A DNA stretch of 64,000 bases from Parabacteroides merdae ATCC 43184 (GTDB lineage Bacteria; Bacteroidota; Bacteroidia; Bacteroidales; Tannerellaceae), in assembly GCF_025151215.1 (NCBI RefSeq), contig NZ_CP102286.1, forward strand, positions 3,162,001 to 3,226,000. The letters are read 5' to 3'. The stretch's first letter is position 1. Each line of letters begins with the position of its first letter. The position numbers and the translations under genes are program-made. Below are positions 1-16,791 of this stretch, piece after piece. The notes under the pieces are model-generated. The model searched no databases. It was given only the letters and a program-made list of their open reading frames with translations, and was not told the DNA's origin.

Positions 1-815
1 GAATGTGCGGTTTAAACTTAGCTTTGGCACATAAAGGCCAGCTTTCAGAGAGATTGTTAGATTATCCTCAACACGGTATTGAAACCTTGATGCTACATTG
101 GGATCAGTCGATCTATACAGCACAACTGCATAGTGATCTGTATTATTGTATGGGAATAATAAGCGCAGCACAAAAATTCGCTTTTGAAGCGTTTGTCAGT
201 TCTCGTTCTTCCGGTAATCCGCGGATGTTGAAAAGGCTGATAGAGACAAATCTGATAACAGGGTCCTATCCGATTGCGGATAAATATATTCAATTGTTGG
301 AAAAGACTTGGTTCTATAAGGATTGGGCTACTGCTCACCGTCGATTTCTTTACAATGATAAAGCAGTCGAGGAAGATAAAATTTTAGGAATGAAACGTCG
401 CTGTTGGAAGGCCGAAGCCTCTGCTGCAAAACTATATACAGATCCTGTCAGTTCATTAATAAACTTGCTCCCGGCTTGTCCGGATAATAAAGCAGGATTA
501 GCATATTTGACTTCGTTTTTACTGTTGAACAAAGATATTGAAACTTATAAAACCTTGCAGGAGAGCTTGTACCGTTCTCCCGCCTGGCGCGATATGACGG
601 AATGCCAGCAGGAGGCAATCGTGATTTGCAGTCCCAATGATCCGCACTTCTGGTTAGAGCATGGGGTGAGCATCAAAGTAAGGAACAGAGCGATCGCTTT
701 TATGCAGAAAGTGCAAGATATTTCCCGTTCGGGGCAGAATCCTGCGGTCGCTTTGGCTTCCGAGTATGACAAAACGTATTGGTACTATTATATGTTTAAT
801 ATGATGGACAAATGA
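1..815 (+). CDS. DUF6057 family membrane protein, C-terminal part (5' end outside window)
   Basis: This reading frame is open to the left edge, so the first ATG at base 3 is probably internal. About 270 residues are visible: a helical, TPR-like soluble region ending in a WYYYMFNMMDK tail. It matches the C-terminal half of the complete protein at 15061-16791; both share an LLE-x-T-x-FYKDWA block and a final TYWYY motif. In that full copy the region follows a multi-spanning membrane domain. The stop overlaps the next start (ATGA at 812), and the same arrangement with a PD40 lipoprotein recurs at 16788, so the two products probably act together. The biochemical role is unknown. Confidence 0.75.
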   Translation, partial: MCGLNLALAHKGQLSERLLDYPQHGIETLMLHWDQSIYTAQLHSDLYYCMGIISAAQKFAFEAFVSSRSSGNPRMLKRLIETNLITGSYPIADKYIQLLEKTWFYKDWATAHRRFLYNDKAVEEDKILGMKRRCWKAEASAAKLYTDPVSSLINLLPACPDNKAGLAYLTSFLLLNKDIETYKTLQESLYRSPAWRDMTECQQEAIVICSPNDPHFWLEHGVSIKVRNRAIAFMQKVQDISRSGQNPAVALASEYDKTYWYYYMFNMMDK

Positions 816-2266
816 AACAATTGCTTTTTTGCATATTCCTTTTGTTGTTGGAAGGATGTTCTTCCAACCAGCCACCTGCCGTCTCCGGGCAGATAGATGA
901 ACTGCCGACCATCTATCCGGATTATATTGACGTAACCATACCGCAATCGATCGCACCTTTGAATTTTGCCGTGCAAACGGAAGGGAAAGCATGCGCGGTA
1001 TTTACAACCGAAGGATATGCATTTACCGTTTACGCCTCCAACGGAGCCTTTTCCATTCCCGATACAGACTGGGAAAAGTTATTGACTGCGGCAAAAGGGA
1101 AACAGGTAGAGGTATCTGTCCTGACAGAAGAAAAAGGGAAATGGAATGCCTTTCTTCCGTTTCATATCCGGGTTTCCGAAGACCCGATCGATCCGTATAT
1201 CGCTTACCGCCTGATCGATCCCGGTTACCAGCTATGGAACGAGATGGGAATCTATCAACGCGAATTATCCTCTTTCGATCAGGAACCGATTCTGGAAAAC
1301 CGCCTGACGGATAATAATTGCATGAACTGCCATTCGTTTTGCATGCAGGACCCGGACAAAATGCTGTTCCATGTCCGTGCAAAGTATGGCTGTACCGTGT
1401 TTGTGGATGGCGACCGGATAGAAACGCTCGATACAAAAACCGATCGGACGATATCGGCATTGGTCTACCCTTCCTGGCATCCTTCGGGAAAGTTTGTTGC
1501 TTTTTCCATCAATAATACAACCCAGGATACGCATCCGGTACATCGTACAGAAGTATATGACAAGGCATCGGATGTAGTCGTCTACGATGTAGAAAAACAG
1601 GAAATCGTCACGACTCAAGCACTATTCTCAAAAAAACGTTTTGAAACATTCCCGACTTTTTCACCGGATGGAAAACAACTTTACTTTTGTTCCGCCCCGG
1701 CATTGAAAGTTCCGGGCGAATTGCGTGACCTTCGTTATAGCCTTTGCCGCGTTTCTTTTGATCCTGAAAGCCGGACTTTCGGTTCTGTTGTCGACACGAT
1801 CTTTCAAGCGGAAACAGAAGGGCAAAGCATTTTGTTTCCCCGTGTCTCGCCAGACGGAAAATATCTGCTTTGTACAACGACATCTTACGGAACCTTCCCT
1901 ATCTGGCACAAAGATGCGGATCTGTGCATGTTCGACCTGAGCACGGGTGCGCAAGTTCCAACAGAAGAAGCGAACAGCCCTGATACGGACAGTTATCATT
2001 CCTGGTCGTCCAACAGCAAGTGGGTGGTATTCAGCAGCCGTCGTTTGGACGGCTTGTACACACGTCCTTTCATTGCTCATGTCGGTGAAAGAGGCGTTCT
2101 CTCAAAGCCGTTCGTCCTGCCTCAGAAATCAACGGAATATTATACATTTCTCACCAAATCGTATAATATCCCGGAATTTGTCAAGGGGAAAGTGAAAACG
2201 GATACATACAAATTAGTTTCCCGAATAAAAGAAGGGAAAAACCAGCAGATCTCATTTACAAAATAA
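812..2266 (+). CDS. PD40/TolB-like beta-propeller lipoprotein with one CxxCH motif (copy 1)
   Basis: The 484-residue protein has a lipoprotein signal with the lipidated Cys at residue 16 (LLEGC). A CMNCH motif at residues 170-174 is the classical c-type haem attachment signature. It is followed by several WD40-like/PD40 repeats (for example HPSGKFVAFS near 217, SPDGKQLYF near 284, SPDGKYLL near 346 and SNSKWVVFSSRR near 398), predicting a beta-propeller. It should be exported and lipid-anchored. It overlaps the DUF6057 gene by 4 nt and lies 4 nt before the GH29 gene, so all three are probably cotranscribed. The paralogue at 16788-18314 keeps the CxxCH. Haem binding is inferred from the motif only. 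Confidence 0.8.
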   Translation: MKQLLFCIFLLLLEGCSSNQPPAVSGQIDELPTIYPDYIDVTIPQSIAPLNFAVQTEGKACAVFTTEGYAFTVYASNGAFSIPDTDWEKLLTAAKGKQVEVSVLTEEKGKWNAFLPFHIRVSEDPIDPYIAYRLIDPGYQLWNEMGIYQRELSSFDQEPILENRLTDNNCMNCHSFCMQDPDKMLFHVRAKYGCTVFVDGDRIETLDTKTDRTISALVYPSWHPSGKFVAFSINNTTQDTHPVHRTEVYDKASDVVVYDVEKQEIVTTQALFSKKRFETFPTFSPDGKQLYFCSAPALKVPGELRDLRYSLCRVSFDPESRTFGSVVDTIFQAETEGQSILFPRVSPDGKYLLCTTTSYGTFPIWHKDADLCMFDLSTGAQVPTEEANSPDTDSYHSWSSNSKWVVFSSRRLDGLYTRPFIAHVGERGVLSKPFVLPQKSTEYYTFLTKSYNIPEFVKGKVKTDTYKLVSRIKEGKNQQISFTK

Positions 2267-2270
2267 CAAC

Positions 2271-4325
2271 ATGAACACAAAGAATCTTTTAATCACCGGT
2301 ATGTTTGCCGGGTTATTTCTTTCCTGCAAGGAAGTAGAGCCGCCCGCACCTGTTTTGCCGGTTCCGACGCCGGAGCAGATCAAATGGCAGAAAATGGAGA
2401 ATTATGCATTCGTGCATTTCGGGTTGAACACATTCAATGATTTGGAATGGGGCTATGGGAATACACCTGCGGAAACATTCAATCCGACAGACCTGGATTG
2501 CGAACAATGGGTACGTATCATCAAAGCGGCCGGCCTGAAAGGGGTGATCCTGACAGCTAAGCACCACGACGGCTTTTGCCTTTGGCCGACCAAAACGGTC
2601 GACTATAATATCTCTAACTCGCCTTATAAAAACGGAAAGGGCGACATGGTTCGCGAATTGTCCGATGCCTGCAAGAAGCACGGCTTGAAGTTCGGGCTTT
2701 ACCTCTCTCCCTGGGATCGCCATAATGCCGAATATGGGCGGGAAGGATACCAGAAGACCTATCATGAGCAAATCAACGAACTGATCTCCAACTACGGTCC
2801 GTTGTTCGAGTTCTGGTTTGACGGGGCGAACGGAGGAAATGGCTGGTACGGTGGAACGAATGAAACGCGTTCGATCGATCCGAAAACCTATTACGGCTAC
2901 GAGACGGCCCGTGAAATGATCAAAGCGAAACATCCGGAAGCGATGATCTTCGGCGGAACGGTTCCCGATATCCGCTGGATCGGCAACGAGTCCGGTTGGG
3001 CCGGCGAAACAAACTGGTCGCCCTATTCGTTGGACAAGGAGACACATTATACACAAAACCAATGGGGAATGAAAGACGGAAACCAGTGGTTGCCGGGAGA
3101 ATGCGACGTATCGATCCGTCCGGGGTGGTTCTATCATCATCGTGAAGATCATCAGGTTCGTACTGTTCCGAATCTGGTCGATTTGTATTATCGCAGTGTG
3201 GGGCATAATGCCAACTTCCTGCTGAACTTCCCGGTAGCACTGAACGGCCAGATTCATCCGGTCGATTCGGCACGTGCCGTCGACTGGTATCATACGATCC
3301 AAGCAGAGTTGAAAGATAATCTTTTGGCAGGTATCCAGCCAAAAGCAAGCGAAACCCGTGGGGGTGCTTATAAAGCATCGAATGTGACGGACGACAACTG
3401 GGATTCTTATTGGGCTACTTCCGACGGGATGACGTCGGGCTCGCTGACTTTCCCGTTACCGACAGGGACTTCGCTGAACCGGGTGATGATTCAAGAGTAT
3501 ATACCTCTTGGACAACGTGTATGCGCCTTTACGCTTGAAGTGGAAAAGGATGGCAAATGGCTGCCGGTGGAAACAACCGATACGCTTTCGACAGTAGGTT
3601 ACAAACGTATCGTCCGTTTCAAAACGACTCCGGCAGATGCTTTGCGCATTCATTTCACAGAGGCAAAAGGCCCGTTATGTATTAATAATGTGGAAGCCTT
3701 CCTGGCTCCCCCGCTGTTGGAACAGCCGCGTATCGTGCGAAATGCGAAAAATGAAGTCCATATAGATGTGGAAAGCGAAGGAGCCGACATTTATTATACA
3801 ACAGATGGAACGGAGCCGACGGCACAGTCTGCAAAATATGAAGTTCCGTTTATATTGGACAAGAAAGGAACCGTCAAAGCGATTACTTATGATGCGCAGT
3901 CCGGCAAATCCGGTCCTGTAGCCAGCCGCCGTTTCGACCTGCCAGCAGTCGATTACAAGGTGACCAGCCCTGCCGATGAGCGGACAAATCTCATGTTTGA
4001 CGGAAACGGTTATTCCACCTATTATCTGCCCGAAGGCAAAAACGAAATAGTAGTAGAGTTGGCCGCCCCTCATACGATAAGCGGTTTTGTTTACACCCCT
4101 AATCAGGGACGCGATTCGCAGGGACATATTTCAAACTATCAATTGTCAGTGGATGGAAAGGTCGTGGCTTCGGGCGAGTTCTCAAACATCAAACATAACC
4201 CGATTGAACAAGAAATACATTTTGCTCCTGTCAAGGGCAAAAAATTAGTTTTTAAGGCAACACGAATTGTTGATAACGTAAAACGTGTTGGAATTGCTGA
4301 GTTTTCAGTTATCACGGAAGACTAA
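2271..4325 (+). CDS. GH29 alpha-L-fucosidase lipoprotein with F5/8-type C-terminal modules
   Basis: This 684-residue lipoprotein (lipobox FLSC, Cys19) has a GH29 catalytic barrel. The HFG at 49-51, AKHHDGF at 96-102 and FWFDGANGG around 181-189 match the family, with Asp184 in the position of the catalytic nucleophile. After the barrel comes a discoidin-like (F5/8 type C) segment at about 345-475, a chitobiase-type module at about 480-550 (YYTTDGTEPT), and a second F5/8-like module to the end. It should remove terminal alpha-L-fucose from glycans in the periplasm or at the cell surface. It is the last gene of the operon, and its stop codon lies at the edge of the 63-bp terminator repeat. Confidence 0.9.
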   Translation: MNTKNLLITGMFAGLFLSCKEVEPPAPVLPVPTPEQIKWQKMENYAFVHFGLNTFNDLEWGYGNTPAETFNPTDLDCEQWVRIIKAAGLKGVILTAKHHDGFCLWPTKTVDYNISNSPYKNGKGDMVRELSDACKKHGLKFGLYLSPWDRHNAEYGREGYQKTYHEQINELISNYGPLFEFWFDGANGGNGWYGGTNETRSIDPKTYYGYETAREMIKAKHPEAMIFGGTVPDIRWIGNESGWAGETNWSPYSLDKETHYTQNQWGMKDGNQWLPGECDVSIRPGWFYHHREDHQVRTVPNLVDLYYRSVGHNANFLLNFPVALNGQIHPVDSARAVDWYHTIQAELKDNLLAGIQPKASETRGGAYKASNVTDDNWDSYWATSDGMTSGSLTFPLPTGTSLNRVMIQEYIPLGQRVCAFTLEVEKDGKWLPVETTDTLSTVGYKRIVRFKTTPADALRIHFTEAKGPLCINNVEAFLAPPLLEQPRIVRNAKNEVHIDVESEGADIYYTTDGTEPTAQSAKYEVPFILDKKGTVKAITYDAQSGKSGPVASRRFDLPAVDYKVTSPADERTNLMFDGNGYSTYYLPEGKNEIVVELAAPHTISGFVYTPNQGRDSQGHISNYQLSVDGKVVASGEFSNIKHNPIEQEIHFAPVKGKKLVFKATRIVDNVKRVGIAEFSVITED

Positions 4326-4386
4326 ACGATTTTCAACATAATTTGTGTTTGGCAGCAAGTGCCTGTGAAGGTCCTTGCTGTTTTTT
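4324..4386 (+). repeat. 63-bp direct repeat, left copy
   Basis: The sequence at 4324-4386 is identical over 63 bases to 18337-18399. The left copy starts inside the GH29 stop codon. The flanking bases on both sides differ between copies. The two copies bracket the whole block carrying the IS remnant, the inversion switch, susCD and the carbamoyltransferase cluster. Confidence 0.95.
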
Positions 4387-4387
4387 T
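4353..4387 (+). terminator. Rho-independent terminator after GH29 (within repeat)
   Basis: CAGCAAG (4353-4359) pairs with CTTGCTG (4374-4380). An inner GCCT/AGGT pairing extends the stem, the loop is GTGA, and seven T residues follow. It ends the DUF6057-PD40-GH29 transcript. Confidence 0.85.
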
Positions 4388-4767
4388 AGGGCCATTCGGT
4401 CCTTCCGCAAAAATCGCCCTTATGCTCCTGAAGTCATACACCGGATTCTCCGACAGGCAGCTGGTGGAACATCTGAACAGGAACATACACTACCAGATGT
4501 TCTGTGGAATCATGAGAGCCACATGCGTTTTCCTACGGACATGAAACTCCTTTGGGAAAGCATCGAATGGCTCTACAGCCATATATGCCGGCATTGCAGG
4601 GATCTCTGGGCATAAGACGTCCGCGCAACAAATACAGGAATGTGGCGGAATCCTATCTGTCCTACTGCAAGAAAAGAAAGAGGAGAGCTTCAAGGACAAA
4701 AGTGATTATACTCTATCATCTTCATATGCCATGTATTTTGTGGGAACATTTACTGAATATCCCTAAA
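4384..4767 (+). pseudogene. Degraded IS transposase remnant
   Basis: Fragments in three frames resemble the N-terminal half of an IS5/IS1182-like DDE transposase common in Bacteroidota. One frame (about 4384-4544) gives LMLLKSYTGFSDRQLVEHLN then NIHYQMFCGI. A second (about 4540-4615) gives TDMKLLWESIEWLY and stops. A third (about 4610-4767) gives IRRPRNKYRNVAESYLSYCK and a basic tail. Frameshifts and a missing catalytic half show it is dead. It begins at the end of the left 63-bp repeat, at the junction of the inserted-looking block. The IS family assignment is from memory of the motif. Confidence 0.7.
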
Positions 4768-4851
4768 TAGACATTTTATTTAAATATTGTTTATTGAAAA
4801 TCAACTAAACCTAAACAGCTTTTGCAGTGATAGTTTCAAAAAAGATGCATG

Positions 4852-4877
4852 AGTTCGATAAGAACTATGGTATTATG
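4852..4877. repeat. Inverted repeat, left arm of probable inversion switch
   Basis: These 26 bases are the perfect reverse complement of 5073-5098. Each arm contains the dyad AGTTC-GATAA-GAACT, which resembles a site-specific recombinase binding site. Confidence 0.93.
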
Positions 4878-4894
4878 AAATCTCATATCCGGGT

Positions 4895-4902
4895 CAAAGA
4901 TA
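4895..4902 (-). promoter_or_regulatory. Bacteroidota -7 element TATCTTTG inside the switch
   Basis: This is an exact TAnnTTTG match on the minus strand, 17 bp inside the left inverted repeat and reading out through it. The -33 region is AT-rich but has no clear TTTG, so it is a partial promoter match. In this orientation transcription would run toward the IS remnant and antisense to GH29. Confidence 0.5.
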
Positions 4903-5072
4903 TGATTTTTTTTATTTCGTTACGCGTTTTTTATAAAAAAATCACATTGATTTTATTTTTAACAGTTGATTTTTATAAATTCTTAGCGATCATTGGGGAA
5001 TACTATGAGTTAAAATTTGTTTGTCGCGATGTCGACTGTAAAAGTTTTAAATTTATCACAGATTATGTTTTA

Positions 5073-5098
5073 CATAATACCATAGTTCTTATCGAACT
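5073..5098. repeat. Inverted repeat, right arm of probable inversion switch
   Basis: Perfect reverse complement of 4852-4877. The core AGTTC-TTATC-GAACT is at 5084-5098. The 224 bases from here to susC are AT-rich leader, with a weak hairpin at 5271-5298 (AATCTAA/TTAGATT). Confidence 0.93.
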
Positions 5099-5322
5099 AT
5101 GTAAAAACACAGATTACTATAAAGTATACTTAAATCAAATAATAAGCAAAGTCCAATAAGGCACTTAACAGATAAAAGTAATTTTCATAAGATGTGTTTT
5201 AATACATAATTTATATAAGAACAAATTTATCAGTCTGATTTTATTTTACTCATGAAATAAACTCAATAACAATCTAAGCCTCAAATGATGTTTAGATTCA
5301 ATATTAACAAAATAATTTTATT

Positions 5323-8300
5323 ATGAAAAAGGAACCTGTATTTGCCACTTTAGTGCTATTATCGGTCATGACCTCACCGACCATAATGGCTACGCCATGG
5401 CATTCTAACACAAAGGTTGGTCCAGAATCAATCGTAACAAAAACGAGTTCTAAACAAAACTATGTCAACGCTAAGACAGTAAAAGGCACAGTTGTCGATG
5501 AAAACGGTATCCCCATTATTGGAGCGAATATTGTCGTAGCAGGTACAACACATGGTACAGTTACAGACATCGATGGTAACTTCACCTTAGAGGGAGTAAA
5601 TAATGGTGACAAACTGACAATATCCTATATCGGATATATTGAACAATCACTCGTTGTTAACCAAAATTCGGAGTACAAAATCGTCTTAAAAGAAGACTCG
5701 CAGAGTTTAGACGAAGTTGTAGTCGTCGGTTATGGTACACAAAAAAAAGTAAACCTGACAGGTGCCGTTGCAGCAATTGGTGCAGATGAAATCATCCAAG
5801 CCCCGGTAGCCAATATCTCGAATGCCTTGGCTGGTCGTCTACCGGGTATCCGTGTACAAAACACAGGCGGTACGCCGGGTGCCGAATCTAGCGTGGATAT
5901 TCGCGGATTCGGGAAACCTCTGATTTTGGTAGATGGAGTTGAACAACCAGGTTTCCAAGTAGACCCAAACGAAATCGAAAGCATTTCCGTATTAAAAGAC
6001 GCCTCCGCAGCCATCTATGGAGTGAAGGCAGGTAATGGTGTCGTATTGATCACGACCAAAAAAGGTGCAGAAGGGAAAGCGCAGATCACATACAACGGAT
6101 CTATCGGCTGGCAGAACTTCACAAGCTATCCAGATATGGTAGATGCTGCCGGATACGCAGAGTTGACCGATGAAGATGCGATCAACCGAGGGAATGCCCC
6201 CGTTTATGGACCGGATAAATTAGCCTTGTTCCGCGAAGGCACTCAAGAAGGATACAAAAGCTACGACTGGAAAGACATCCTAACCCGCAAGAATGCTCCA
6301 CAGACTCAACATAATATCAATGTGAACGGAGGAACCGAAAAAGTGAAATACTTCATGTCAGTAGGTTACTTAAATCAAGAAGGCTTGTATGCCACAAAAG
6401 ATATCAATTTCTCTCGTTACAACTTCCGTTCCAACATCTCTGCGAAAATTTCCAAGTATTTGACCGCAGATGCGCAGTTAAGCGGACATGTACAAGACAA
6501 GATGGCACCTTATGACGACGATACTTATATCATTCACGGTATCACCCGTATGCACCCTTACTATTCTCCATACGCCAACGACGAAGAAGGTAAGCACTAT
6601 GGATTAACCAACTTCCAAAATCCCCTGGCACGTTCAGATGCAGATGTTTCTGGCTATCGAAAAGAACGTAAGAAATTATTCAATGGTGTTTTCTCCTTAA
6701 AATATGATATGCCGTTTATTCCAGGACTGTCAGCCAAGGTTTTATTTTCCTATTTGACAAAAGTAGAAGAATTCAAAACCTTTGCGAAAGAGTTCAAACT
6801 CTATTCATACGATAAGGAATCTGGTAAATACAATACGGTTTTCACAGGAAACTCGCCGTCCAACTTGACTCGCAAAGATTACACACAAGAGCAGAACATG
6901 CTTCAGTTCTCTCTGAATTACAATCGCACATTCCTTGACAAACACAATGTGCAGGCTTTGTTCTTGTATGAACAACGTGAAGATTTGGATGATTATTTGC
7001 AGGCCTACCGTCAATTTGCAATTGATGCCCTTGACCAAATAAATTCAGGTTCGGACAAGAACAAAAATAACGCAGGTGTAGCAAGCGAATTGGCCAACGC
7101 ATCTTTTGTAGGACGTATCAATTATGATTACGCAAGCAAATATTTATTCGAATTCTCTTTTCGCGAAGATGGTTCCGCAAAATTCTACAAAAACAACCGT
7201 TGGGGATTCTTCCCGAGCGTATCCGTAGGATGGCGTTTATCCGAAGAATCATTTATCAAGAATAACACCCAAATTTTTGACAACTTAAAGATCAGAGCAT
7301 CATATGGCGTCATGGGGGATGACCAATTCTTGGACTCTAGCGGTAATCCGCAAGTTCTTCCGTTCCAATACCTGACAGGTTACAACTATCCGGGTGGAAC
7401 AAATTATATCTTCGGTAGCGATGTAGTCAATTCATTGATAACAAAAGGATTGGCTAACACAGAATATTCTTGGTTGACATCCAAGATACTAAATGTCGGT
7501 TTCGATGCATCTTTGTGGAATCGTAAATTAGAAGCAAGTGTAGATGTTTTCTACCGGAAACGCGACGGCTTATTTGCATACCGTTCCGGTTCATTACCCA
7601 ACACTTTTGGAGCTTCTTTCCCACAAGAAAACTTAAACAGTGATGATTTCCGAGGTTTTGAGTTGGTATTAGGACACACAAATACAGTAGGAGACTGGAC
7701 TTACTCGGTCAAAGGTAATATGTCGTTCACTCGCGCGAAAAACCGCCACATTGAACAAGCTGATCCAATCAACTCCTATAAGAACTGGACCAGTAACTTT
7801 AGCGATCGTTGGAATAATATGTCTTTCGGTTACAAATGTGTAGGTCAGTTCCAAGATCAAGAAGACATCAATAACTGGGCAATCCAAGATGACGCCGGCA
7901 ACACGACTATGATGCCGGGCGACTTGAAATACGAGGATTTCAATGGCGATGGCGTAATTGATAATAACGATATTCAACCAATTACCCGTAGCAACACGCC
8001 AGAAATTTATTTCGGTTTGGACCTGAGTGCCTCTTGGAAAGGTTTCGACTTCTCCTTGTTGATGCAAGGAGCAACCAATTACAATGTATATATGTCTGGT
8101 TGTTTGGGTAATGCCATGTTCAACGGGTCCAATACATTGGAATGCTTTATGGACCGATGGCATCGCGAAGACTTGTATGATCCTGAATCGGCATGGATTC
8201 CGGGGAAATATCCGTCAACATGGAACTCCGGGAAGCCATCTAACACTCGTGTTTCTACCTTCAACCACATCAGCTCATACTACCTGCGTGTAAAAAACAT

Positions 8301-8493
8301 CGAGTTCGGCTACACCTTCCCCAAAGAGTGGTTAAGCAAGGTTTATGTTGAAAGATTACGTCTGTATGTATCCGGAAATAACGTACTGACATTTGATAAT
8401 CTGCCGTTTGGCGACCCAGAAGCACCCAGTAGCGATAGAATCTTATATCCGCAGTTGAAAATTTGGAATATTGGTGTAAATGTTACATTTTAA
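5323..8493 (+). CDS. SusC/RagA-family TonB-dependent outer-membrane receptor
   Basis: The 1056-residue protein has a signal peptide, a carboxypeptidase-D-like regulatory domain at about 53-122 (VKGTVVDENGIPIIGANIVV), a TonB-box-like DEVVVVGYGT at 130-139, a plug domain to about 245, and a 22-strand-type barrel ending in NVTF. It should import oligosaccharides captured by the SusD partner. It has no STN domain, and no sigma/FecR pair lies upstream, unlike the second receptor at 49487. Control is therefore more likely through the inverted-repeat switch just upstream. SusD follows after 15 nt. Its substrate cannot be told from sequence. Confidence 0.95.
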   Translation: MKKEPVFATLVLLSVMTSPTIMATPWHSNTKVGPESIVTKTSSKQNYVNAKTVKGTVVDENGIPIIGANIVVAGTTHGTVTDIDGNFTLEGVNNGDKLTISYIGYIEQSLVVNQNSEYKIVLKEDSQSLDEVVVVGYGTQKKVNLTGAVAAIGADEIIQAPVANISNALAGRLPGIRVQNTGGTPGAESSVDIRGFGKPLILVDGVEQPGFQVDPNEIESISVLKDASAAIYGVKAGNGVVLITTKKGAEGKAQITYNGSIGWQNFTSYPDMVDAAGYAELTDEDAINRGNAPVYGPDKLALFREGTQEGYKSYDWKDILTRKNAPQTQHNINVNGGTEKVKYFMSVGYLNQEGLYATKDINFSRYNFRSNISAKISKYLTADAQLSGHVQDKMAPYDDDTYIIHGITRMHPYYSPYANDEEGKHYGLTNFQNPLARSDADVSGYRKERKKLFNGVFSLKYDMPFIPGLSAKVLFSYLTKVEEFKTFAKEFKLYSYDKESGKYNTVFTGNSPSNLTRKDYTQEQNMLQFSLNYNRTFLDKHNVQALFLYEQREDLDDYLQAYRQFAIDALDQINSGSDKNKNNAGVASELANASFVGRINYDYASKYLFEFSFREDGSAKFYKNNRWGFFPSVSVGWRLSEESFIKNNTQIFDNLKIRASYGVMGDDQFLDSSGNPQVLPFQYLTGYNYPGGTNYIFGSDVVNSLITKGLANTEYSWLTSKILNVGFDASLWNRKLEASVDVFYRKRDGLFAYRSGSLPNTFGASFPQENLNSDDFRGFELVLGHTNTVGDWTYSVKGNMSFTRAKNRHIEQADPINSYKNWTSNFSDRWNNMSFGYKCVGQFQDQEDINNWAIQDDAGNTTMMPGDLKYEDFNGDGVIDNNDIQPITRSNTPEIYFGLDLSASWKGFDFSLLMQGATNYNVYMSGCLGNAMFNGSNTLECFMDRWHREDLYDPESAWIPGKYPSTWNSGKPSNTRVSTFNHISSYYLRVKNIEFGYTFPKEWLSKVYVERLRLYVSGNNVLTFDNLPFGDPEAPSSDRILYPQLKIWNIGVNVTF

Positions 8494-8508
8494 GAATTTG
8501 ATTAAAAT

Positions 8509-10266
8509 ATGAAAAGCATAAAATTATTAGTACTGTCTTTGTGTGGGCTATTTAGCATGTCGTCCTGTGTCAACGACTTCTTGGACCGTGATCCTATGGA
8601 TATTATATCTGAAGACTTGGTTTGGTCCAATGAGAATGCGGTCAACGCTTATATGGCCGGAATGTACGAAGATATGTTCGTCGAACCTCATGCATGGTTG
8701 ATTAACTGGGGTACCTTGGGGCATTACACAGACGAATCCATGCGTAGTTATTCATGGGGCTATCCCTACACCCCGGTATTGGATCTCTCCAGCTTGCAAC
8801 AATGGGAATACAATAAAATACGTATCGCCAATGTGTTCTTGCAAAACATCCAAACCTCTACATTGAACGAGGATTTGAAACAACGTTGGACAGCGGAAGC
8901 ACACTTTGTACGGGCATTCCACTATTTCACAATGGCAAAACGCTATGGTGGTGTACCTTTGATAAAAGAGGTACAAGAATATACCGGAAACAACGTAGAA
9001 GAACTAAAGGTTCCGCGCAATACGGAAGAAGAAGTCTGGAACTTCATTGCTGAAGAGTGTGATTTAGCGATCGCCGGTTTGCCTGAATCCTACGGATCTA
9101 CAGACCAGTTCCGTGTAACCAAATATGCCGCAGCCGCTTTGAAAGCAAGAGCTCTGCTTTATGCAGGCTCCATCAGTCGCTATGGCACCGTACAGTTGAA
9201 TGGCTTGGTAGGTATTCCTGCAGATAAGGCAAACGACTTTTTCAAAAGATCCATGGAGGCCTCTGACATGATCATTAAATCAGGCAAGTTCGCTCTATTC
9301 AATCAAGATCCGGATCCTGCTGCCAACTACCAACAACTGTTCTTAGACAAAACAATGAACAGCGAAGCTATCTTTGTAAAAGCTTTTGCATCTCCTGACA
9401 AAGCGCATAATTTCGATTATGCTATGGCCGCTCCCTCCTTCAAAATTGACTGGGGAACCAATACAAGTCCGACGTTGGAATTAGTAGAATCATATGAGTA
9501 TATAGATGGAACACCTGGTACGTTAAAAACAACCGATGCAAGTGGAAATCTGATCTATTACGAAAACGCAGAAGATATTTTCAAGGATAAAGACCCGCGT
9601 TTCTTCGCCTCTATTCTTTACCCAGGTTCTCCTTGGCAAAACGGAGAGTTGGAAGTAAGACGCGGCATTATCAAAAATGATGGCTCCAAAGAGGCTGCCT
9701 CGGCATTCACGGATGTGTTCAGCGAAGATCCGTCTATGAAAACCGGAGGTAAAGATGGGCTCGTCATGGCAGGTGATTGCAGTCGTACAGGATTTTATAT
9801 CAAGAAATTCATGGATCCTACCAATCGAGTAGAAATGGACCGTTCCGAAACGAACTTTATGGTGTTCCGTTATGCAGAAACCTTGCTGAATTATGCGGAA
9901 GCCGCTTTCGAATTGGGACTAAAAGACCAAGCTCTCCAAAAAGTGAACGAAGTACGTAAACGTGCTGGTATCAAGGAGAAAAATAGCTTGACAATGGATG
10001 ATATCCGAAACGAAAGACGCGTAGAATTGGCATTCGAGAATTTACGTTACTGGGATTTGGTCCGTTGGCGTGTTGCTTCCAAAGTAATGAACAACACAAC
10101 TTTCTCGGCATTAATTCCTTGGTTGGACTATAAGACCAAAAAATATGTTTTCGAGAAATCGGTCAATACCTTGAATCTGCCCAAAACGTTTTTGGACAAA
10201 CAATACTACTTGGAGATTCCGGGTGTAGCTCAAAACGATTTATTAGAACAAAATCCGGGTTATTAA
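8509..10266 (+). CDS. SusD/RagB-family glycan-binding lipoprotein
   Basis: The 585-residue lipoprotein (Cys20, SMSSC) opens with the typical FLDRDP segment, has TPR-like helices (AEAHFVRAFHYFTMAKRYGG) and ends with the family C-terminus (EIPGVAQNDLLEQNPGY). It is the surface-exposed lid that delivers glycans to the SusC channel at 5323-8493. It is cotranscribed with susC and the DUF3823 gene. The ligand is unknown, and no glycosidase belongs to this operon. Confidence 0.95.
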   Translation: MKSIKLLVLSLCGLFSMSSCVNDFLDRDPMDIISEDLVWSNENAVNAYMAGMYEDMFVEPHAWLINWGTLGHYTDESMRSYSWGYPYTPVLDLSSLQQWEYNKIRIANVFLQNIQTSTLNEDLKQRWTAEAHFVRAFHYFTMAKRYGGVPLIKEVQEYTGNNVEELKVPRNTEEEVWNFIAEECDLAIAGLPESYGSTDQFRVTKYAAAALKARALLYAGSISRYGTVQLNGLVGIPADKANDFFKRSMEASDMIIKSGKFALFNQDPDPAANYQQLFLDKTMNSEAIFVKAFASPDKAHNFDYAMAAPSFKIDWGTNTSPTLELVESYEYIDGTPGTLKTTDASGNLIYYENAEDIFKDKDPRFFASILYPGSPWQNGELEVRRGIIKNDGSKEAASAFTDVFSEDPSMKTGGKDGLVMAGDCSRTGFYIKKFMDPTNRVEMDRSETNFMVFRYAETLLNYAEAAFELGLKDQALQKVNEVRKRAGIKEKNSLTMDDIRNERRVELAFENLRYWDLVRWRVASKVMNNTTFSALIPWLDYKTKKYVFEKSVNTLNLPKTFLDKQYYLEIPGVAQNDLLEQNPGY

Positions 10267-10285
10267 TCTTTTCATATTTAAAGAC

Positions 10286-10957
10286 ATGAAAAAAATATTT
10301 TTATATGCAACACTAATTTGTGGCTTGTGCTCCTGCGGGCTTGACAACTATGACGCACCTACCGCTTCCCTAAGTGGAGCGATCATAGACAAAGAGACAA
10401 AAGAAAATGTCCCCGGACAAGCTCAAAACGGGACAAAAATACGTATGTATGAGTTTTATAATGACGAATGGTCTGTACAACCCAACGATTCATGGGTGAG
10501 CCAAGATGGCACATTCTCGAATACAGCAGTATTTACCGGTAAATACAAGATTTTAGCCGAAGGGCCTTTTGAGACAGTAGAACCGATCGAAATGGAAGTC
10601 TCAGGTTCAAAACAGATGAACTTTGAAGTAACACCGTTTTTGCGCATATCGGCAGAAGCGACATCCAACGAAACAGGCAAAGTTACGGTTAAAACTTCCG
10701 TAGACAATGTTTTAGATAAAACAATACAAGCAGTAGAATTCTACTACTGCAAGACTCCGTATGTGGATAAAAACACCTTTACGGCTAAAGAATCTGTAGA
10801 ACTTGGTACGGAGACCGAATTAGACATTGCCACTTATTCTCATACGTTCGAGAATCTCAAAAGCGGAAAGACTTTCTACTTCCGGGTAGGAGCCTTAGCT
10901 GTTAACCCTGGCGGATTCTATAATTATAGTAAAGTAATAGAAGTTACCGTTAAATAA
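10286..10957 (+). CDS. DUF3823 domain lipoprotein of the SusCD operon
   Basis: The 223-residue lipoprotein (Cys17, LCSC) carries the DUF3823-type start DNYDAPTASLSGAIIDKETK and a C-terminal all-beta domain resembling fibronectin III (SGKTFYFRVGALAVNPGG). Such proteins commonly follow SusD genes and are thought to be surface glycan-binding or scaffold proteins. It is 19 nt after susD and is followed by a strong hairpin, so it closes the three-gene operon. No enzymatic motif is visible. Confidence 0.8.
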   Translation: MKKIFLYATLICGLCSCGLDNYDAPTASLSGAIIDKETKENVPGQAQNGTKIRMYEFYNDEWSVQPNDSWVSQDGTFSNTAVFTGKYKILAEGPFETVEPIEMEVSGSKQMNFEVTPFLRISAEATSNETGKVTVKTSVDNVLDKTIQAVEFYYCKTPYVDKNTFTAKESVELGTETELDIATYSHTFENLKSGKTFYFRVGALAVNPGGFYNYSKVIEVTVK

Positions 10958-10970
10958 ATCAGATCTATTT

Positions 10971-11022
10971 AAGGACTGTTTTTGCATTTTTCATTAACAC
11001 AAGAAAATGCAAGACAGTCCTT
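10971..11022 (+). terminator. Long hairpin ending the susCD-DUF3823 operon
   Basis: AAGGACTGT (from 10971) pairs with ACAGTCCTT (ending 11022). An inner pairing of TTGCATTTT with AAAATGCAA extends the stem. No T-run follows, so it may terminate only partly or stabilise the upstream mRNA. The SGNH gene begins 26 nt later. Confidence 0.6.
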
Positions 11023-11048
11023 AATCATCACAATGTAAACGGCCTAAT

Positions 11049-12848
11049 ATGAGTAAAACATCCAAATATCTGCTGATGATAGGTATCTATCTATTTCTTT
11101 CCTTGCTTTTTCTTATCGGAATAGAGTGTGGATTGAGAGCTTTCGGATATGGTGTAGATTTAGACCATCTTTTCTTGCAAACAGCGAATGGTAAATATTT
11201 ATATCTCAACAAAAACATCAGTAGAAGGTACTTTACTCAATCACAAGCCACAAACGGAAATGTAGAGTTTTTTCGGAAAAAGAAACAAAAAAACACATTC
11301 AGAATTTTTGTTCTGGGCGAATCAGCAGCAATGGGATTTCCCTATCCCAATAATATTTCGTTCCAACGAATGCTGAAATACCAATTGCAAAAGACAAATC
11401 CAGACAAAGATATCGAGATCATCAATTTAGCTCTGACTGCAATCAACAGTTACACTTTTTACGATTTCGCACAAGAACTCGTTCATTTTGAGCCAGATGC
11501 GATTTTTATTTATGGTGGACACAACGAGTATTACGGAGCTTTGGGTGTAGGCTCCAATAATACACTCGGTAGCCATCCAACATTTATCCGTTGGGCAATC
11601 CGTTTGCGTCAGTTACGTCTTACTCAATGGCTCGATTCTTTAAAAAGCCACTTAAGCCCTCAAAAGGAGTTCTCAGACAACTTGATGAAATATGTGGTCA
11701 AAGAGCAAGTGATCCCCTACAAAAGCAAACTATTTCAACAAGGACTGGAACAGTTTCAAAACAATATGAAATTAGTACTTAATCTGTTCAAAAAACACCA
11801 AATACCAGTTTTCTTCTCAACTGTCGGAGTTAATTTAAAAGACTTAAAGCCTTTCAAAAGCATATCGTCTGACGAACATAGCGCCGATGAATATTATCAA
11901 CTGGCACAAGAACAATTGCAAGCACAAGATAGCATAGCAGCATACACATCCTTCAGTCGGGCACGAGACTTGGACGCCCTTAGATTTAGAGCATCCAAAG
12001 AGATCAATGAGATCATCCGAGAATTAGCCAAAGATGACGATAATATTTACTTGGTAAATACCGAAGAGGAATTTAACCGAAAAAGCCCGTTCGGTATTCC
12101 CGGACGAGAATTATTGCTGGAACATGTACATCCTACTATCGAAGGGCATCGGGTGATCGCAAATTGCTTTTTGGAAGTTCTTCGGCAAAACCAATCCTGT
12201 TTTTCCAACAAAAAACTACAAATCGGCACTTCAGAAGATCTATACAACTTTCCTGTTTTAGAGTTTGACTCCTTAGCTGGAGAATATGCTTGCTTACAAC
12301 TGCGTAAAGGATTCCCATTCTATGAAAAAGATCTCTCTACAATTACCCCTAAAACAGAAGTAGAAAAGATCGCAGCAAACTACGTACGACAAAAAAACTG
12401 GTATCAATCCATGGATCAACTGTATCAGTACGCACTTAATAGCAAGAATGAAAAATTATGTTTGGATATTCTCCGGGTTCGTATCACGGATAACCCTTAC
12501 GACCTCACCTTCCTTGGTCAAGGAGGAGAATTCGCAGAGATCCGAAAAGAATATCCTTTAGCTATCTTCTTCTACACACGAAGTTTCCGCCTGTATCCCA
12601 CGGTTCAAACAGCACAGAACTTAGTTGCAATCCATTTACGGCTCGATCAACCCGATCTGGCTCTTCCTTACATTGAATATATACTCCGAAACGGAAATCC
12701 GAAATTTAACGGACTCAAAGAGCTTTGCCATAAGATCATCCAGTACAAACAAGAATTAAATTGGCAATCGAATGATTCAATCCGGCAAGCAATCCGATCG
12801 ATCTATCTACAAATGGGTAATCAGGATGCAGCCGACCTATACAATTAA
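11049..12848 (+). CDS. Membrane-anchored SGNH/GDSL-type hydrolase with TPR-like C-terminus
   Basis: The 599-residue protein has an N-terminal membrane anchor (about 8-28), then an SGNH fold. The nucleophile block is VLGES with Ser92, GGHNE at 156-160 supplies the Gly/Asn block, and EHVHP at 358-362 supplies the His; Glu358 takes the place of the usual Asp in the DxxH dyad. The region from about 430 on is helical and TPR-like. SGNH enzymes are esterases or acyltransferases. Genes of this type accompany NodU/CmcH carbamoyltransferases, DUF5989 and SxtJ proteins, as here. It probably acts outside the cytoplasm on an acylated or carbamoylated product; the substrate is unknown. Confidence 0.8.
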   Translation: MSKTSKYLLMIGIYLFLSLLFLIGIECGLRAFGYGVDLDHLFLQTANGKYLYLNKNISRRYFTQSQATNGNVEFFRKKKQKNTFRIFVLGESAAMGFPYPNNISFQRMLKYQLQKTNPDKDIEIINLALTAINSYTFYDFAQELVHFEPDAIFIYGGHNEYYGALGVGSNNTLGSHPTFIRWAIRLRQLRLTQWLDSLKSHLSPQKEFSDNLMKYVVKEQVIPYKSKLFQQGLEQFQNNMKLVLNLFKKHQIPVFFSTVGVNLKDLKPFKSISSDEHSADEYYQLAQEQLQAQDSIAAYTSFSRARDLDALRFRASKEINEIIRELAKDDDNIYLVNTEEEFNRKSPFGIPGRELLLEHVHPTIEGHRVIANCFLEVLRQNQSCFSNKKLQIGTSEDLYNFPVLEFDSLAGEYACLQLRKGFPFYEKDLSTITPKTEVEKIAANYVRQKNWYQSMDQLYQYALNSKNEKLCLDILRVRITDNPYDLTFLGQGGEFAEIRKEYPLAIFFYTRSFRLYPTVQTAQNLVAIHLRLDQPDLALPYIEYILRNGNPKFNGLKELCHKIIQYKQELNWQSNDSIRQAIRSIYLQMGNQDAADLYN

Positions 12849-12855
12849 TAATAAA

Positions 12856-14679
12856 ATGAGCTATATTTTAGGTATATCCGCATATTATCATGATGCAGCC
12901 GCAGCTTTGATAAAAGATGGCGAGATCATAGCTGCCGCACAAGAAGAACGCTTTACCCGAATCAAGAACGATGCATCTTTTCCTGCAAATGCAATCCGTT
13001 ATTGTTTACAGCAAGCGGGAATTTTATTGTGTGATATCTCCACAATTATCTATTACGAAAAACCCTATCTGAAATTTGAGCGAATTTTAGAAATCTTTTA
13101 TCGATACGCACCATGGGGGATGGAACAGTTCATTAAAGGAATACCAATATGGATTGAAGAAAAACTTTTTTGCAAACGAATGCTCAAGCGTGAATTACGC
13201 AAGTTAGGAAAATTCGATGAACAACATTGTAAACTTTTGTTCTCGGAACATCATTTGTCACATGCGGCTTCCGCATTTTTCGGTTCAGATTTTCAAGAAG
13301 CTGCGATTATAACAGTAGACGGTGTAGGAGAATGGAATACACTATCTATCGCTCATGGGAAAGCCAATCAAATTCAATTAATAAAAGAAATGCGATTTCC
13401 TGATTCCATTGGATTGTTCTATTCTGCATTTACCTATTATTTAGGATTCAAGGTGAACTCCGGGGAATATAAGATGATGGGATTAGCCCCTTACGCCGAT
13501 CGATCTGACCGACAAACCTCAAAATTTGTCGATCAGATCAAACAACATCTACTGACGATCCATCCCGATGGTTCTATATCATTGAATATGTATTATTTCT
13601 CCTTCCACAAAAAAATGCGAATGGTTCATGAAAAGCGTTGGGAACAATTATTTCAATTGAAACCTCGAAAGGCAGAAAGCGAAATACGCCCAGAACACGC
13701 AAGTCTAGCACTTGCAGCTCAAATTGTATTGGAAGAGATACTATTGAGAATTGTTCAAACAGCCCAAAAGCTCACTGGCTGTTCCAACCTATGTCTAGCC
13801 GGAGGAGTCGCTCTAAATTGCGTAGCAAATGGTAAAATCATTCGTTCACAATTATTTGAGCATGTCTTCATCCAACCTGCCGCAGGAGATGCAGGAGGAG
13901 CATTAGGAGCGGCTTGGGCCACTTATTATATTTACCAAGGACATTCACGAAAAGCCGGGATGAATGGAGACAAGATGCACTTCGCCCAAACCGGTCCTCA
14001 ATATACAGAGCATGAGATTCAAGATTTTTTGGACTCGAATAACATTTCTTATCACTATTTGGATGAAGCATTTTTATATGAAGAAGTGGCTAAACACATA
14101 GCTTCCGGTTTATGTATAGGTTGGTTTCAAGGGCGTATGGAGTTTGGCCCACGTGCATTAGGAAACCGAAGTATCTTGGCAGATCCCCGTGATAAAGAGA
14201 TGCAAAAAAGATTAAATTTGAAAATCAAGTTCAGAGAAAGCTTCCGACCATTTGCTCCAGTTATATTAAAAGAAAAAGTCAGCGATTATTTTGAAAAGCT
14301 GACCGAATCCAATTATATGCTGATAACAACCAACATTTCTCTGAAACATCGGATACCATTGCCAAAGCATTATCAAGATTTAGATGCCGCAGAACGATTG
14401 GCGTTACCAAAATCAGATATTCCGGCAGTTACCCATGTGGATTTTTCCGCACGCGTACAAACTGTTGATGAACAAAGTAATCCCAAATTAACGAAGCTTT
14501 TACGGGCATTCGAACAATTAACAGGCTACCCTTTGCTTATCAATACAAGTTTTAACGTACGTGGCGAACCTATTGTCTGCACCCCGCAAGATGCATACCG
14601 CTGTTTTATGACAACCAACTTAGATCTCTTGGTTTTAGGGAATTATATAATCAATAAAAATAACATACAAAAATCATAA
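12856..14679 (+). CDS. NodU/CmcH-family carbamoyltransferase
   Basis: Starting at ATG 12856, 7 nt after the previous stop, gives 607 residues beginning MSYILGISAYYHDAAAALIK, which is the normal family N-terminus. An in-frame start at 12772 would overlap the upstream gene by 77 nt and is unlikely. The N-terminal kinase-like domain has the SEHHLSHAASAFFG block (130-143; His132, His133, His136) and LCLAGGVALNCVANGK (312-327). The C-terminal domain has FGPRALGNRSI at 430-440. The family transfers carbamoyl from carbamoyl phosphate, via carbamoyl-AMP, to a hydroxyl of a sugar, antibiotic or lipid-linked acceptor. The acceptor here is not known. Confidence 0.92.
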   Translation: MSYILGISAYYHDAAAALIKDGEIIAAAQEERFTRIKNDASFPANAIRYCLQQAGILLCDISTIIYYEKPYLKFERILEIFYRYAPWGMEQFIKGIPIWIEEKLFCKRMLKRELRKLGKFDEQHCKLLFSEHHLSHAASAFFGSDFQEAAIITVDGVGEWNTLSIAHGKANQIQLIKEMRFPDSIGLFYSAFTYYLGFKVNSGEYKMMGLAPYADRSDRQTSKFVDQIKQHLLTIHPDGSISLNMYYFSFHKKMRMVHEKRWEQLFQLKPRKAESEIRPEHASLALAAQIVLEEILLRIVQTAQKLTGCSNLCLAGGVALNCVANGKIIRSQLFEHVFIQPAAGDAGGALGAAWATYYIYQGHSRKAGMNGDKMHFAQTGPQYTEHEIQDFLDSNNISYHYLDEAFLYEEVAKHIASGLCIGWFQGRMEFGPRALGNRSILADPRDKEMQKRLNLKIKFRESFRPFAPVILKEKVSDYFEKLTESNYMLITTNISLKHRIPLPKHYQDLDAAERLALPKSDIPAVTHVDFSARVQTVDEQSNPKLTKLLRAFEQLTGYPLLINTSFNVRGEPIVCTPQDAYRCFMTTNLDLLVLGNYIINKNNIQKS

Positions 14680-14682
14680 AAT

Positions 14683-14832
14683 ATGGACACATTGAAAGAC
14701 TTACTACTTTTTATAAAAGAACGAAAAAAATGGTGGTTGCTACCTGTATTAATATTCTTGCTATTGATTGGCTTGTTGCTAATCTCTACAAGCAATACAG
14801 TGATTGCCCCCTTTATTTACACTCTATTTTGA
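14683..14832 (+). CDS. DUF5989 family small membrane protein
   Basis: A 49-residue ORF starts MDTLKDLLLFIKERKKWWLL, followed by one hydrophobic helix and a short tail (NTVIAPFIYTLF). This matches the DUF5989 pattern of a short amphipathic start, KKWWLLP, then a transmembrane helix. Such small proteins are regularly encoded between carbamoyltransferase and SxtJ genes. It begins 3 nt after the carbamoyltransferase stop, so translation is probably coupled. Function unknown; likely a membrane subunit or adaptor of the carbamoylation system. Confidence 0.8.
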   Translation: MDTLKDLLLFIKERKKWWLLPVLIFLLLIGLLLISTSNTVIAPFIYTLF

Positions 14833-14839
14833 ATGTCCT

Positions 14840-15067
14840 ATGAATTGGATTCACATATACAAGAAAATACGTACGGTTTGGATTCGTTTCGGAAACCTGT
14901 TAAACAAGATCACCTCACCAATCCTGTTGGGAATTACTTATTTTTTGATCCTCACGCCAATTGCGTGGTTATACCGCCTGTTCAACCGGACAGAAGAGGA
15001 ACAAGATAGTACAATGAACGAACGAGTTAAGACTTATTCTAAAGAAGATTTTATTCATCCATGGTAA
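14840..15067 (+). CDS. SxtJ-like small membrane protein
   Basis: From ATG 14840 the product is 75 residues: a basic start, one or two hydrophobic stretches (ITSPILLGITYFLILTPIAW) and a polar tail ending DFIHPW. The ILLGITYFLILTPIAWLYRLF segment matches the C-terminal part of SxtJ-family proteins, which accompany carbamoyltransferases. An in-frame ATG at 14804 would overlap the DUF5989 gene and is less likely. The stop overlaps the next start by 7 nt. The role is unknown; the membrane location suggests it tethers or assists the carbamoyltransferase. Confidence 0.7.
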   Translation: MNWIHIYKKIRTVWIRFGNLLNKITSPILLGITYFLILTPIAWLYRLFNRTEEEQDSTMNERVKTYSKEDFIHPW

Positions 15068-16791
15068 ATATGAAACAACTTCATACATTTTCCTACGGGC
15101 TACTACCATTCGTCCTATTTACAGTAATCCTTTATGCCTTTTTCTATAATCATCATCTGCTCTTTGCCGAGCAGTTACGATTGTTTGAATGGAACAAAGA
15201 CTATTTCAACGAAATAGTTTATAATCCAGGAGGATTATCTGCCTATATAGGGGAGTTTTTCACACAGTTTTATCATTTAAATCATTTTGGGGGATGGATT
15301 TTAGGAGCCGGAGTCGGACTAACCGGTATATTATATCGCAACCTGATCTGCCATTGGAAAATTGGAGGAAATGTCTCATGGGAACTGATTCCTATCACTT
15401 CACTGGTTTTCTTCTATTTAAACCCTAACGCATCATTGGGACTCATTTTTGGACTTCTGATTACCCTTTTACTTGCAAGAATAACTCTTCATGAAAAGGA
15501 AGGCAAACGCAAAAGACTTCTGATCCTAATCAACTTACCGATTTGCTATTTCTTTACTGGAATAGGCTGTTATTTATATCTTATTCTCATCTTCCTCGAT
15601 GAAGTTTTTTCGAAGAAAAAACACTCACTTCTTGCTTGGATTCTATATACACTCGTTACAATCCTACTGCCTATCTTAACTTATTATAAATTCGACATCA
15701 ATGAAACACAAGCTTGGATAGGTATAGCTTGTTTTATTACACAAGACTTACTTCATCCACTTGGTATCGTTATCACTTCATTTTTAATATCTCCCTTATT
15801 AGCTTACGGGACATATCATCTTTTACAGCGATTAACAGACAAAAAACGATTCGCTTTAAATCTGCTCATGGCTTTCTTCGCTATCGGGATCATCTTAAGC
15901 CAACTCAAAAATGAGGATGAACGACTTTATCAACTACATTATCTAATCACCCACGAAAAATGGGACGAAGCGATTACCTTCATGCAAAAAAAGCCTGTCC
16001 AAAATGTTCTGATGTCCTCCTATACCAACATTGCCCTGCTTCATCAGCAACGTCTTTCAAAAGAGCTATTCTCGTATTTCCAAGTAGCTCATGTCAACGA
16101 ATTTTGGTCTTCCAACCATCTATTAAATTATCTGACTGCTGAGACTTATTTTCAGCTAGATATGCTCTATGCTGCCAGAGCCTATATGTTCATGGCGAAC
16201 ACGCAAACTCCATCCGGACGTTCCCCGCTCTATCTGACACGATTGGCGGAGATCGAATACAGAAGGGGAAAACGGGCTGCCAGCCTCAAATATGTGGCCT
16301 TACTGGAGTCTACCTTATTCTACAAAGACTGGGCTTACAAATTTAGGCAAAAGATGAACACAGACTCCTCGACAAAAAAAAGTCAACTTTCACCCAAAAC
16401 CAATAAGCTTTTTCTTGCCAAAGAGATGCTTTTCAACGTGGAACAATTTGAGACACAAGCAGGAGCCAACAATCAAAAAGTCATCGATTTCCTGCTAGCA
16501 AAATATATGCTCAACAATCAATATAACGCATTTATCCAATTAGCCGCCCGGACTCATCTCACAATACATAGTAGCAAGCATTATCAAGAGTTTTTGCTAA
16601 TGTATGCTTATCTACTGAAAGATAACTCATTGATTTCAAAATGGCAAATTGAACAAACTGTAATAGAGCGTTTCTACCGATATTTACAAATCAACCAGTC
16701 GGGAAAATCTCCGGAAGAAATCCAGGAATTACTATGCCCCTATAAAGACACCTATTGGTATTACGTACAATATAATAAAAAACAAATATGA
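15061..16791 (+). CDS. DUF6057 family polytopic membrane protein (complete copy)
   Basis: The 576-residue protein has roughly eight to ten predicted membrane segments in its first 285 residues (for example LLPFVLFTVILYAFFY, LGLIFGLLITLLLARITL and LLMAFFAIGIILSQL), then a soluble TPR-like domain of about 290 residues ending TYWYYVQYNKKQI. The partial protein at 1-815 is its paralogue. An alternative start at ATG 15070 would avoid the overlap with SxtJ. It lies between the carbamoyltransferase genes and the PD40/CxxCH lipoprotein, with overlaps on both sides, so the proteins probably form one envelope pathway. No catalytic motif was recognised. Confidence 0.8.
   Translation: MVNMKQLHTFSYGLLPFVLFTVILYAFFYNHHLLFAEQLRLFEWNKDYFNEIVYNPGGLSAYIGEFFTQFYHLNHFGGWILGAGVGLTGILYRNLICHWKIGGNVSWELIPITSLVFFYLNPNASLGLIFGLLITLLLARITLHEKEGKRKRLLILINLPICYFFTGIGCYLYLILIFLDEVFSKKKHSLLAWILYTLVTILLPILTYYKFDINETQAWIGIACFITQDLLHPLGIVITSFLISPLLAYGTYHLLQRLTDKKRFALNLLMAFFAIGIILSQLKNEDERLYQLHYLITHEKWDEAITFMQKKPVQNVLMSSYTNIALLHQQRLSKELFSYFQVAHVNEFWSSNHLLNYLTAETYFQLDMLYAARAYMFMANTQTPSGRSPLYLTRLAEIEYRRGKRAASLKYVALLESTLFYKDWAYKFRQKMNTDSSTKKSQLSPKTNKLFLAKEMLFNVEQFETQAGANNQKVIDFLLAKYMLNNQYNAFIQLAARTHLTIHSSKHYQEFLLMYAYLLKDNSLISKWQIEQTVIERFYRYLQINQSGKSPEEIQELLCPYKDTYWYYVQYNKKQI

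Follow-up and report, generated by a model that had tools for sequence, protein, structure and literature searches.

Can the DNA in front of a susC/susD operon of Parabacteroides merdae ATCC 43184 turn around and in this way switch the operon on and off? The question is raised by positions 4852–5098 of the window, by which the whole analysed stretch of 64,000 nucleotides is meant (G000:C1:3162001–3226000; G000 is the strain's own genome, a single 4.38-Mb contig, C1, and the other G numbers stand for genomes of the same genus). A first-pass annotation had described these positions as a probable phase-variable promoter captured in the OFF orientation, with the inversion and the OFF state marked as inference. 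Our analysis leads to a closely similar answer, which is held with high confidence: the segment would be a phase-variable promoter that is inverted by a trans-acting tyrosine recombinase, and susC–susD would be OFF in the orientation as read.

Architecture of the segment before susC

The segment is bounded by two inverted-repeat arms of 26 nt, located at 4852–4877 on the forward strand and at 5073–5098 on the reverse strand, and its AT-rich interior spans 195 bp (4878–5072). The arms are perfect reverse complements over 26 nt, and they still agree at 97% when extended to 29 nt. Each arm opens at its outer end with an AGTTC-N5-GAACT dyad (AGTTCGATAAGAACT), which occupies 4852–4866 on the left and 5084–5098 on the right. 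The repeats, their dyads, the length of the interior and the distance of 224 bp to susC had all been given in the annotation, and the coordinates proved exact. With up to three mismatches allowed, the 26-mer occurs twice in the window and was absent from 100 shuffled versions; in the whole 4.38-Mb genome it also occurs twice, both occurrences being the arms themselves. A search of viral contigs with the arm gave no match, and an Rfam search of 4300–5700 gave no RNA element up to an E value of 1. The inverted repeats flank an intergenic segment, which is the layout by which an inverton is recognized. To the left of the segment, at 4380–4770, frame remnants that resemble a decayed transposase can be seen by eye.

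The likely target of the switch is susC (5323–8493, + strand). It encodes a TonB-dependent receptor with CarboxypepD-reg and Plug domains and, according to Pfam, without an STN domain. It is followed on the same strand by susD (8509–10266) and by a gene for a DUF3823 protein (10286–10957), which is likely to belong to the same operon, judging from the spacing. Upstream, an alpha-L-fucosidase-like gene is found in the same orientation (2271–4325, +) and ends 526 bp before the left arm. Neither a sigma factor nor FecR is present among the nine window proteins scanned (3–16791), so the annotation was right about the gene content in this respect as well as about the receptor.

The direction of the promoter was read from matches to TAnnTTTG, the −7 consensus of Bacteroides. 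The only exact match inside the segment is TATCTTTG at 4895–4902 on the reverse strand, 28 bp inside the left dyad. It is the predicted promoter, facing out at one end of the segment and away from susC. The annotation had spoken of one exact element, which is true of the segment and not of the upstream region, where a second match lies at 5222–5229 (−); these are the two exact matches within 4701–5330, and neither faces susC as read. TAnnTTTG is a common motif (52 observed in the window vs. 43 expected), so a single copy alone means little. The leader of 224 bp between the right arm and susC (5099–5322, +) has no exact TAnnTTTG on the + strand; matches with one mismatch are located at 5179 and 5313, and a weak promoter may be present within this leader.

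Since TATCTTTG would fire leftward as read, susC–susD are predicted to be OFF. In the proposed mechanism, a trans-acting tyrosine recombinase would recombine both AGTTC-N5-GAACT dyads and invert the DNA between them. When the segment is flipped in silico, the element moves to 5048–5055 (+), which is 267 nt upstream of the susC start codon, and the operon would then be ON. The expectation of the annotation that the element faces away from susC as read and toward it after inversion is confirmed by this flip.

Paired sites and natural inversions

The AGTTC-N5-GAACT dyad is found at 24 sites in the own genome, compared with 7 sites for the reversed control TCAAG-N5-CTTGA. Half of them (12/24) are arranged in six inverted pairs, whose dyads are 168–538 bp apart from start to start. 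By dyad starts, the pairs on G000:C1 are 360642/361180, 1370033/1370278, 1642758/1642926, 3155300/3155562, 3166852/3167084 (the window pair), and 4132715/4133042. The spacer of five bases differs from pair to pair, but in all six the two spacers of a pair are exact inverse copies of each other, and this suits recombination sites, which need such copies, while operators do not. An outward TAnnTTTG no more than 60 bp from an arm accompanies five of the six pairs; the mean of shuffled sequences is 0.59, and five were reached by 1 of 2000 shuffles.

The surroundings of several pairs were recorded in addition. The pair at G000:C1:360642–361194 (L053:4643–5195) is located between a divergent susC gene and an alpha-L-rhamnosidase gene, so that a single promoter could alternate between the two sides. 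Two further pairs, at G000:C1:1370033–1370292 (L054) and 1642758–1642940 (L055), lie 17–18 bp before genes for proteins with an HU-DNA_bdg domain, and in L055 this gene is followed by one for a DUF4988/Fib_succ_major protein. The pair at G000:C1:4132715–4133056 (L056:4716–5057) extends across the beginning of an anti-sigma gene, fecR (ORF 4845–5792). A flip is predicted to cost this gene its normal start along with about 70 codons, with the first possible start at 5088 (GTG), and the pair would be a gene-truncating switch if flipped. The layout is alike in G013.

Related genomes contain such pairs too. Exact inverse pairs no more than 1 kb apart number six in G000, five in G013, three in G012 (from 14 of 14 sites), three in G004, two in G015, at least two in G032 (from 9 of its 10 sites), and one each in G001, G011 and G014; eight further genomes examined have none, and the site-rich G018, G020, G021 and G023 stand outside these counts. 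In one more close pair of G004 (on C109), the spacers do not match as exact inverses. For the study of pair surroundings, the 24 exact pairs were joined by two that were added by hand, namely a pair of G002 with one mismatch in the right arm and a pair of P. faecis with a relaxed dyad, so that the set comprises 26 pairs and eleven genomes; G016 was omitted, being orthologous to G015. Orthologues are found among the 26 (e.g., G000/G013/G002 and G012/G032), so the pairs are not independent and their effective number is smaller. Read with this limit, a SusC-like ORF flanks 16 of the 26 pairs (in two cases with fecR between), nine are without one, and one lies at a contig end. An exact outward TAnnTTTG within 60 bp of an arm is present at 18 of the 26, compared with a mean of 2.8 and a maximum of 9 in 500 dinucleotide shuffles, and is absent from the remaining eight; the inward orientation is seen at two pairs, against a shuffle mean of 2.8. 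The last spacer base, read from outside inward, is A in 40 of 48 arms, a polarity that would suit an asymmetric recombination site. Additionally, the dyad AGTTCTGGAAGAACT forms inverted pairs that are far apart, 14.5 kb in G012 (L069) and 9.9 kb in G032 (L070), which suggests a larger invertible segment in these genomes.

Inversion can be seen in the comparison of genomes. In G015 and G016, the same pair lies between two susC genes that diverge, and both 300-bp flanks are 100% identical. The interior is identical at 536 of 536 positions if one copy is inverted and at 51% if it is not. A second case is provided by the sister element of the window segment (G000:C1:3155300–3155576; L052:7301–7577), which lies 11.5 kb upstream, before another susC/susD. 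It is 76% similar to the window segment over 129 bp, and the relationship concerns the left part of the window interior. G000 and G013 carry the sister element in one and the same orientation (71.0% vs. 47.9% for the other orientation). In G002, its interior is inverted between collinear flanks, with 65.5% vs. 48.8% similarity to G000 and 72.5% vs. 49.5% to G013. The TAnnTTTG that G000 and G013 have in common (TACCTTTG, TATCTTTG) faces away from susC, while TATCTTTG of G002 points to the side that susC occupies in G000 and G013; the contig of G002 ends before susC. In G000, the sister element carries a second TAnnTTTG that faces susC, so matches face both ways there. A weaker case is that of G032 and G012, whose interiors agree better when one is inverted (62.9% vs. 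51.5%), and G012 has the right flank twice. Judged from these alignments, the AGTTC-N5-GAACT site type inverts in nature. The six pairs, the outward elements at five of them, and the inversions at the same site type in relatives support the view of the annotation that the window segment is a phase-variable promoter.

For the window locus, the 34 other genomes of the genus were searched, with at most nine candidates scored per genome. The matches listed are limited to the sister locus, in G013 and G002, and to short stretches over the start of susC, in G028 and G008. The SusC protein has relatives in an uncultured Parabacteroides, with 88% in the best segment, in P. faecis (76%), and in a Tannerella MAG (62%). 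No dyad pair precedes susC of the closest relative found (L066, 88%). The P. faecis homologue has a relaxed dyad pair before susC, together with an outward element; its interior is too diverged from that of the window to be oriented (49.6% vs. 46.7% between orientations, with a null maximum of 52).

The probable recombinase and the competing explanations

No recombinase gene was found beside the pairs of the own genome, where five loci were covered with flanks of about 4 kb or longer on both sides, and the window with its downstream genes to 16.8 kb; the enzyme should therefore act in trans. In 13 loci, of which ten contain a close pair, one contains a lone site, and two contain pairs 10–14 kb apart, no ORF matched the recombinases of the own genome, serine ones included. 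One of the stretches, L071, ends just short of a homologue of the candidate described below, which is 4.8 kb from the same pair, so the absence of an adjacent recombinase holds for the own genome only.

The annotation had named an Mpi-like serine recombinase or a tyrosine recombinase as the possible enzyme, together with further copies of the core. All of these are present: besides the six pairs, there are three serine recombinase genes of the Mpi family (NF009949), one of them above the curated cut-off, and 20 genes for tyrosine recombinases that exceed the Pfam cut-off (from 23 matches, of which two are halves of one gene and two fall below the cut-off). Of the two types, a tyrosine enzyme of the Tsr0667 kind, acting in trans, is the likelier one. 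The best candidate is a gene at G000:C1:229912–231120, whose frame stays open over 412 codons, with no stop, and which has Arm-DNA-bind_5 (PF17293), SAM-like (PF13102) and integrase (PF00589) domains. It comes after a susD-like gene and near rarA-like and serC-like genes (names by reading). In the 35 genomes of the genus, own included, 17 have full-length homologues (at least 65% identity), the homologues of another 7 are divergent or partial, and 11 have none at E 1e-60; G011, one of the 11, has fragments only (59% and 46%). G022 has two copies and the others one. Of these 17 loci, 13 were fetched. A dyad pair lies 4.8–4.9 kb away, between divergent susC genes, in G012, G032, G015 and G016; these four loci represent two similar gene arrangements and so perhaps one or two independent cases. 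The locus of G001 has a single exact dyad, and eight loci, own genome included, have no dyad nearby. The rarA-like gene is found in nine of the 13 fetched stretches and is absent from the stretch in four.

The distribution of the candidate follows that of the sites. Full-length homologues are present in 9 of the 10 site-enriched genomes (sites at least twice the control) and in 8 of the 25 others (Fisher p 0.0025, uncorrected for phylogeny or genome size). Site density is also higher in genomes with the full-length candidate (p 0.0013, again ignoring phylogeny and genome size). The reversed control is itself frequent in several relatives (14–25 copies, e.g., in G015, G016 and G010), which makes it an imperfect yardstick. 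Pairs also occur without a close homologue in G004 (three pairs) and G014 (one pair), and beside fragments only in G011 (one pair); all three are drafts. On this evidence it is likely that the candidate, acting in trans, is the invertase, and the assignment is kept at this grade because the tests ignore phylogeny and genome size and this was the sole tyrosine recombinase tested for distribution. The other five pairs of the own genome would probably be served by the same enzyme. Somewhat better than an even chance is given to a wider proposal, in which this one tyrosine recombinase, located near rarA/serC-like and susCD genes in nine of the 13 loci, would be the master invertase of the genus for AGTTC-N5-GAACT sites; its regulon would comprise susCD operons, operons with an HU-like gene at their start, and the fecR start, and promoter flips would be coupled to gene-truncating ones.

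Other recombinases of the own genome were set aside as the invertase: L030, L046 and L048 have neighbours that, by reading, resemble hsd or UpxY genes, and L045 was set aside by its resemblance to L046 alone. L030 (G000:C1:1606318–1606803) is an XerA-like recombinase between genes reading like hsdM and hsdS, which suggests a phase-variable type I restriction system at this locus.

Inversion of the segment by an Mpi-type serine recombinase is improbable. Mpi is the known master invertase of the capsule promoters of B. fragilis (PMC4747536), and the three NF009949-family genes noted above would supply such an enzyme. However, the sites do not follow Mpi in the 35 genomes: a gene above the cut-off is present in 29 of them, in 9 of 10 site-enriched genomes and in 20 of 25 others (p 0.44), and none of the 13 pair or site loci has an ORF that matches the serine recombinases of the own genome. 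A little less credit is given to a former switch that is now locked, with arms that persist and no active recombinase in the strain that recognises them. It would agree with the single orientation known at the window locus and with the lack of a dyad pair beside the candidate in the own genome, but the 26-nt arms are perfect, five more pairs are intact, and the candidate frame is open over its 412 codons. That a transcription factor uses the two dyads as operators, and that they are not recombination sites, is very unlikely. A dimeric regulator might bind to a dyad of 15 bp, and many of the pairs lie before susC genes; this explanation was rejected on account of the spacers, which differ between loci yet match as inverse copies in every one of the six own pairs, as an operator would not require, and of the interior of G015/G016, which is inverted exactly between the dyads. 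The idea that the unit is one copy of a dispersed non-autonomous transposon (a MITE, as also raised in the annotation), or what decay has left of one, can be discarded, since the partly similar unit 11.5 kb upstream, for all the transposase-like remnants left of the arm, is the only other one in 4.38 Mb, both units lie before susC genes, the 26-mer arm is unique to the segment, the flanks show no target duplication by eye, and dispersed copies with such duplications were not found in the own genome.

Relation to known phase-variable systems

A phase-variable promoter inverted by a tyrosine recombinase acting in trans would be of a kind whose mechanism is already known. As a class, and by family resemblance, this reading of the segment is well supported, and from both we infer the flip at 4852–5098. 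Mpi-controlled capsule promoters have a −7 TAnnTTTG in the segment. They are also described as short segments with inverted repeats and a trans-acting master invertase in the excerpted text of PMC4747536. The window segment is likewise short, with TAnnTTTG and inverted repeats; the difference is that Mpi is a serine recombinase with capsule targets, and the distribution of the sites here does not follow it. The PhaseFinder invertons of gut Bacteroidales were reportedly described by Jiang in 2019. They have the same architecture as the window segment but were called from reads in both orientations, whereas the window case comes from sequence comparison.

SusC/SusD-adjacent invertible regions have been reported whose orientation is among the most different between IBD patients and controls, and a link between inversions next to SusC and states of inflammation has been described (PMC10939037, excerpt). 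For this reason, a set of switches in this genus is useful to know. Similar excerpts list invertible promoters in Parabacteroides species (PMC8748976), record phase-variable regions in P. distasonis (PMC10773633), and, in a 2025 review, place SusCD orthologs among inverted loci (PMC12632263). In the literature searched, by title and abstract start, no paper dealt with the AGTTC-N5-GAACT site set in Parabacteroides. Our results extend SusC/SusD phase variation to six candidate switches in one Parabacteroides genome and name a candidate recombinase that can be tested, and the comparison of genomes shows that the site type inverts.

The closest parallel is found in Tsr0667-controlled SusC/SusD switches of Bacteroides fragilis, which were reportedly described by Nakayama-Imaohji in 2009. 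The consensus of Tsr0667-type sites is reported to be AGTYYYN4GAACT. This consensus was not found in the literature searched, as far as titles and partial texts go, and the sole text with AGTYYY is unrelated by its title. It fits 22 of the 24 exact pairs on one strand, the window pair included; about 18 fits are expected by chance (0.75 × 24, an estimate), so the match alone is weak. In the partial texts of PMC4747536 and PMC11852207, inversion takes place before susC/susD, one tyrosine recombinase serves many distant sites, and shufflon-like loci occur. The present family is similar in these respects: the window segment has susC/susD as its target, as a switch of the Tsr0667 type does, the family is likely under one tyrosine recombinase, and three sites surround susC copies in G012. 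It differs in that it belongs to another genus and that the pair in the window forms a promoter segment of the simple kind, with two sites; the likeness is one of published descriptions. The three sites of G012 are found in L110 (G012:C2:2390000–2408000), where dyads near 11102, 11510 and 13086 lie around an intact and a shortened susC copy, a shufflon-like arrangement at least 4.8 kb from the candidate recombinase.
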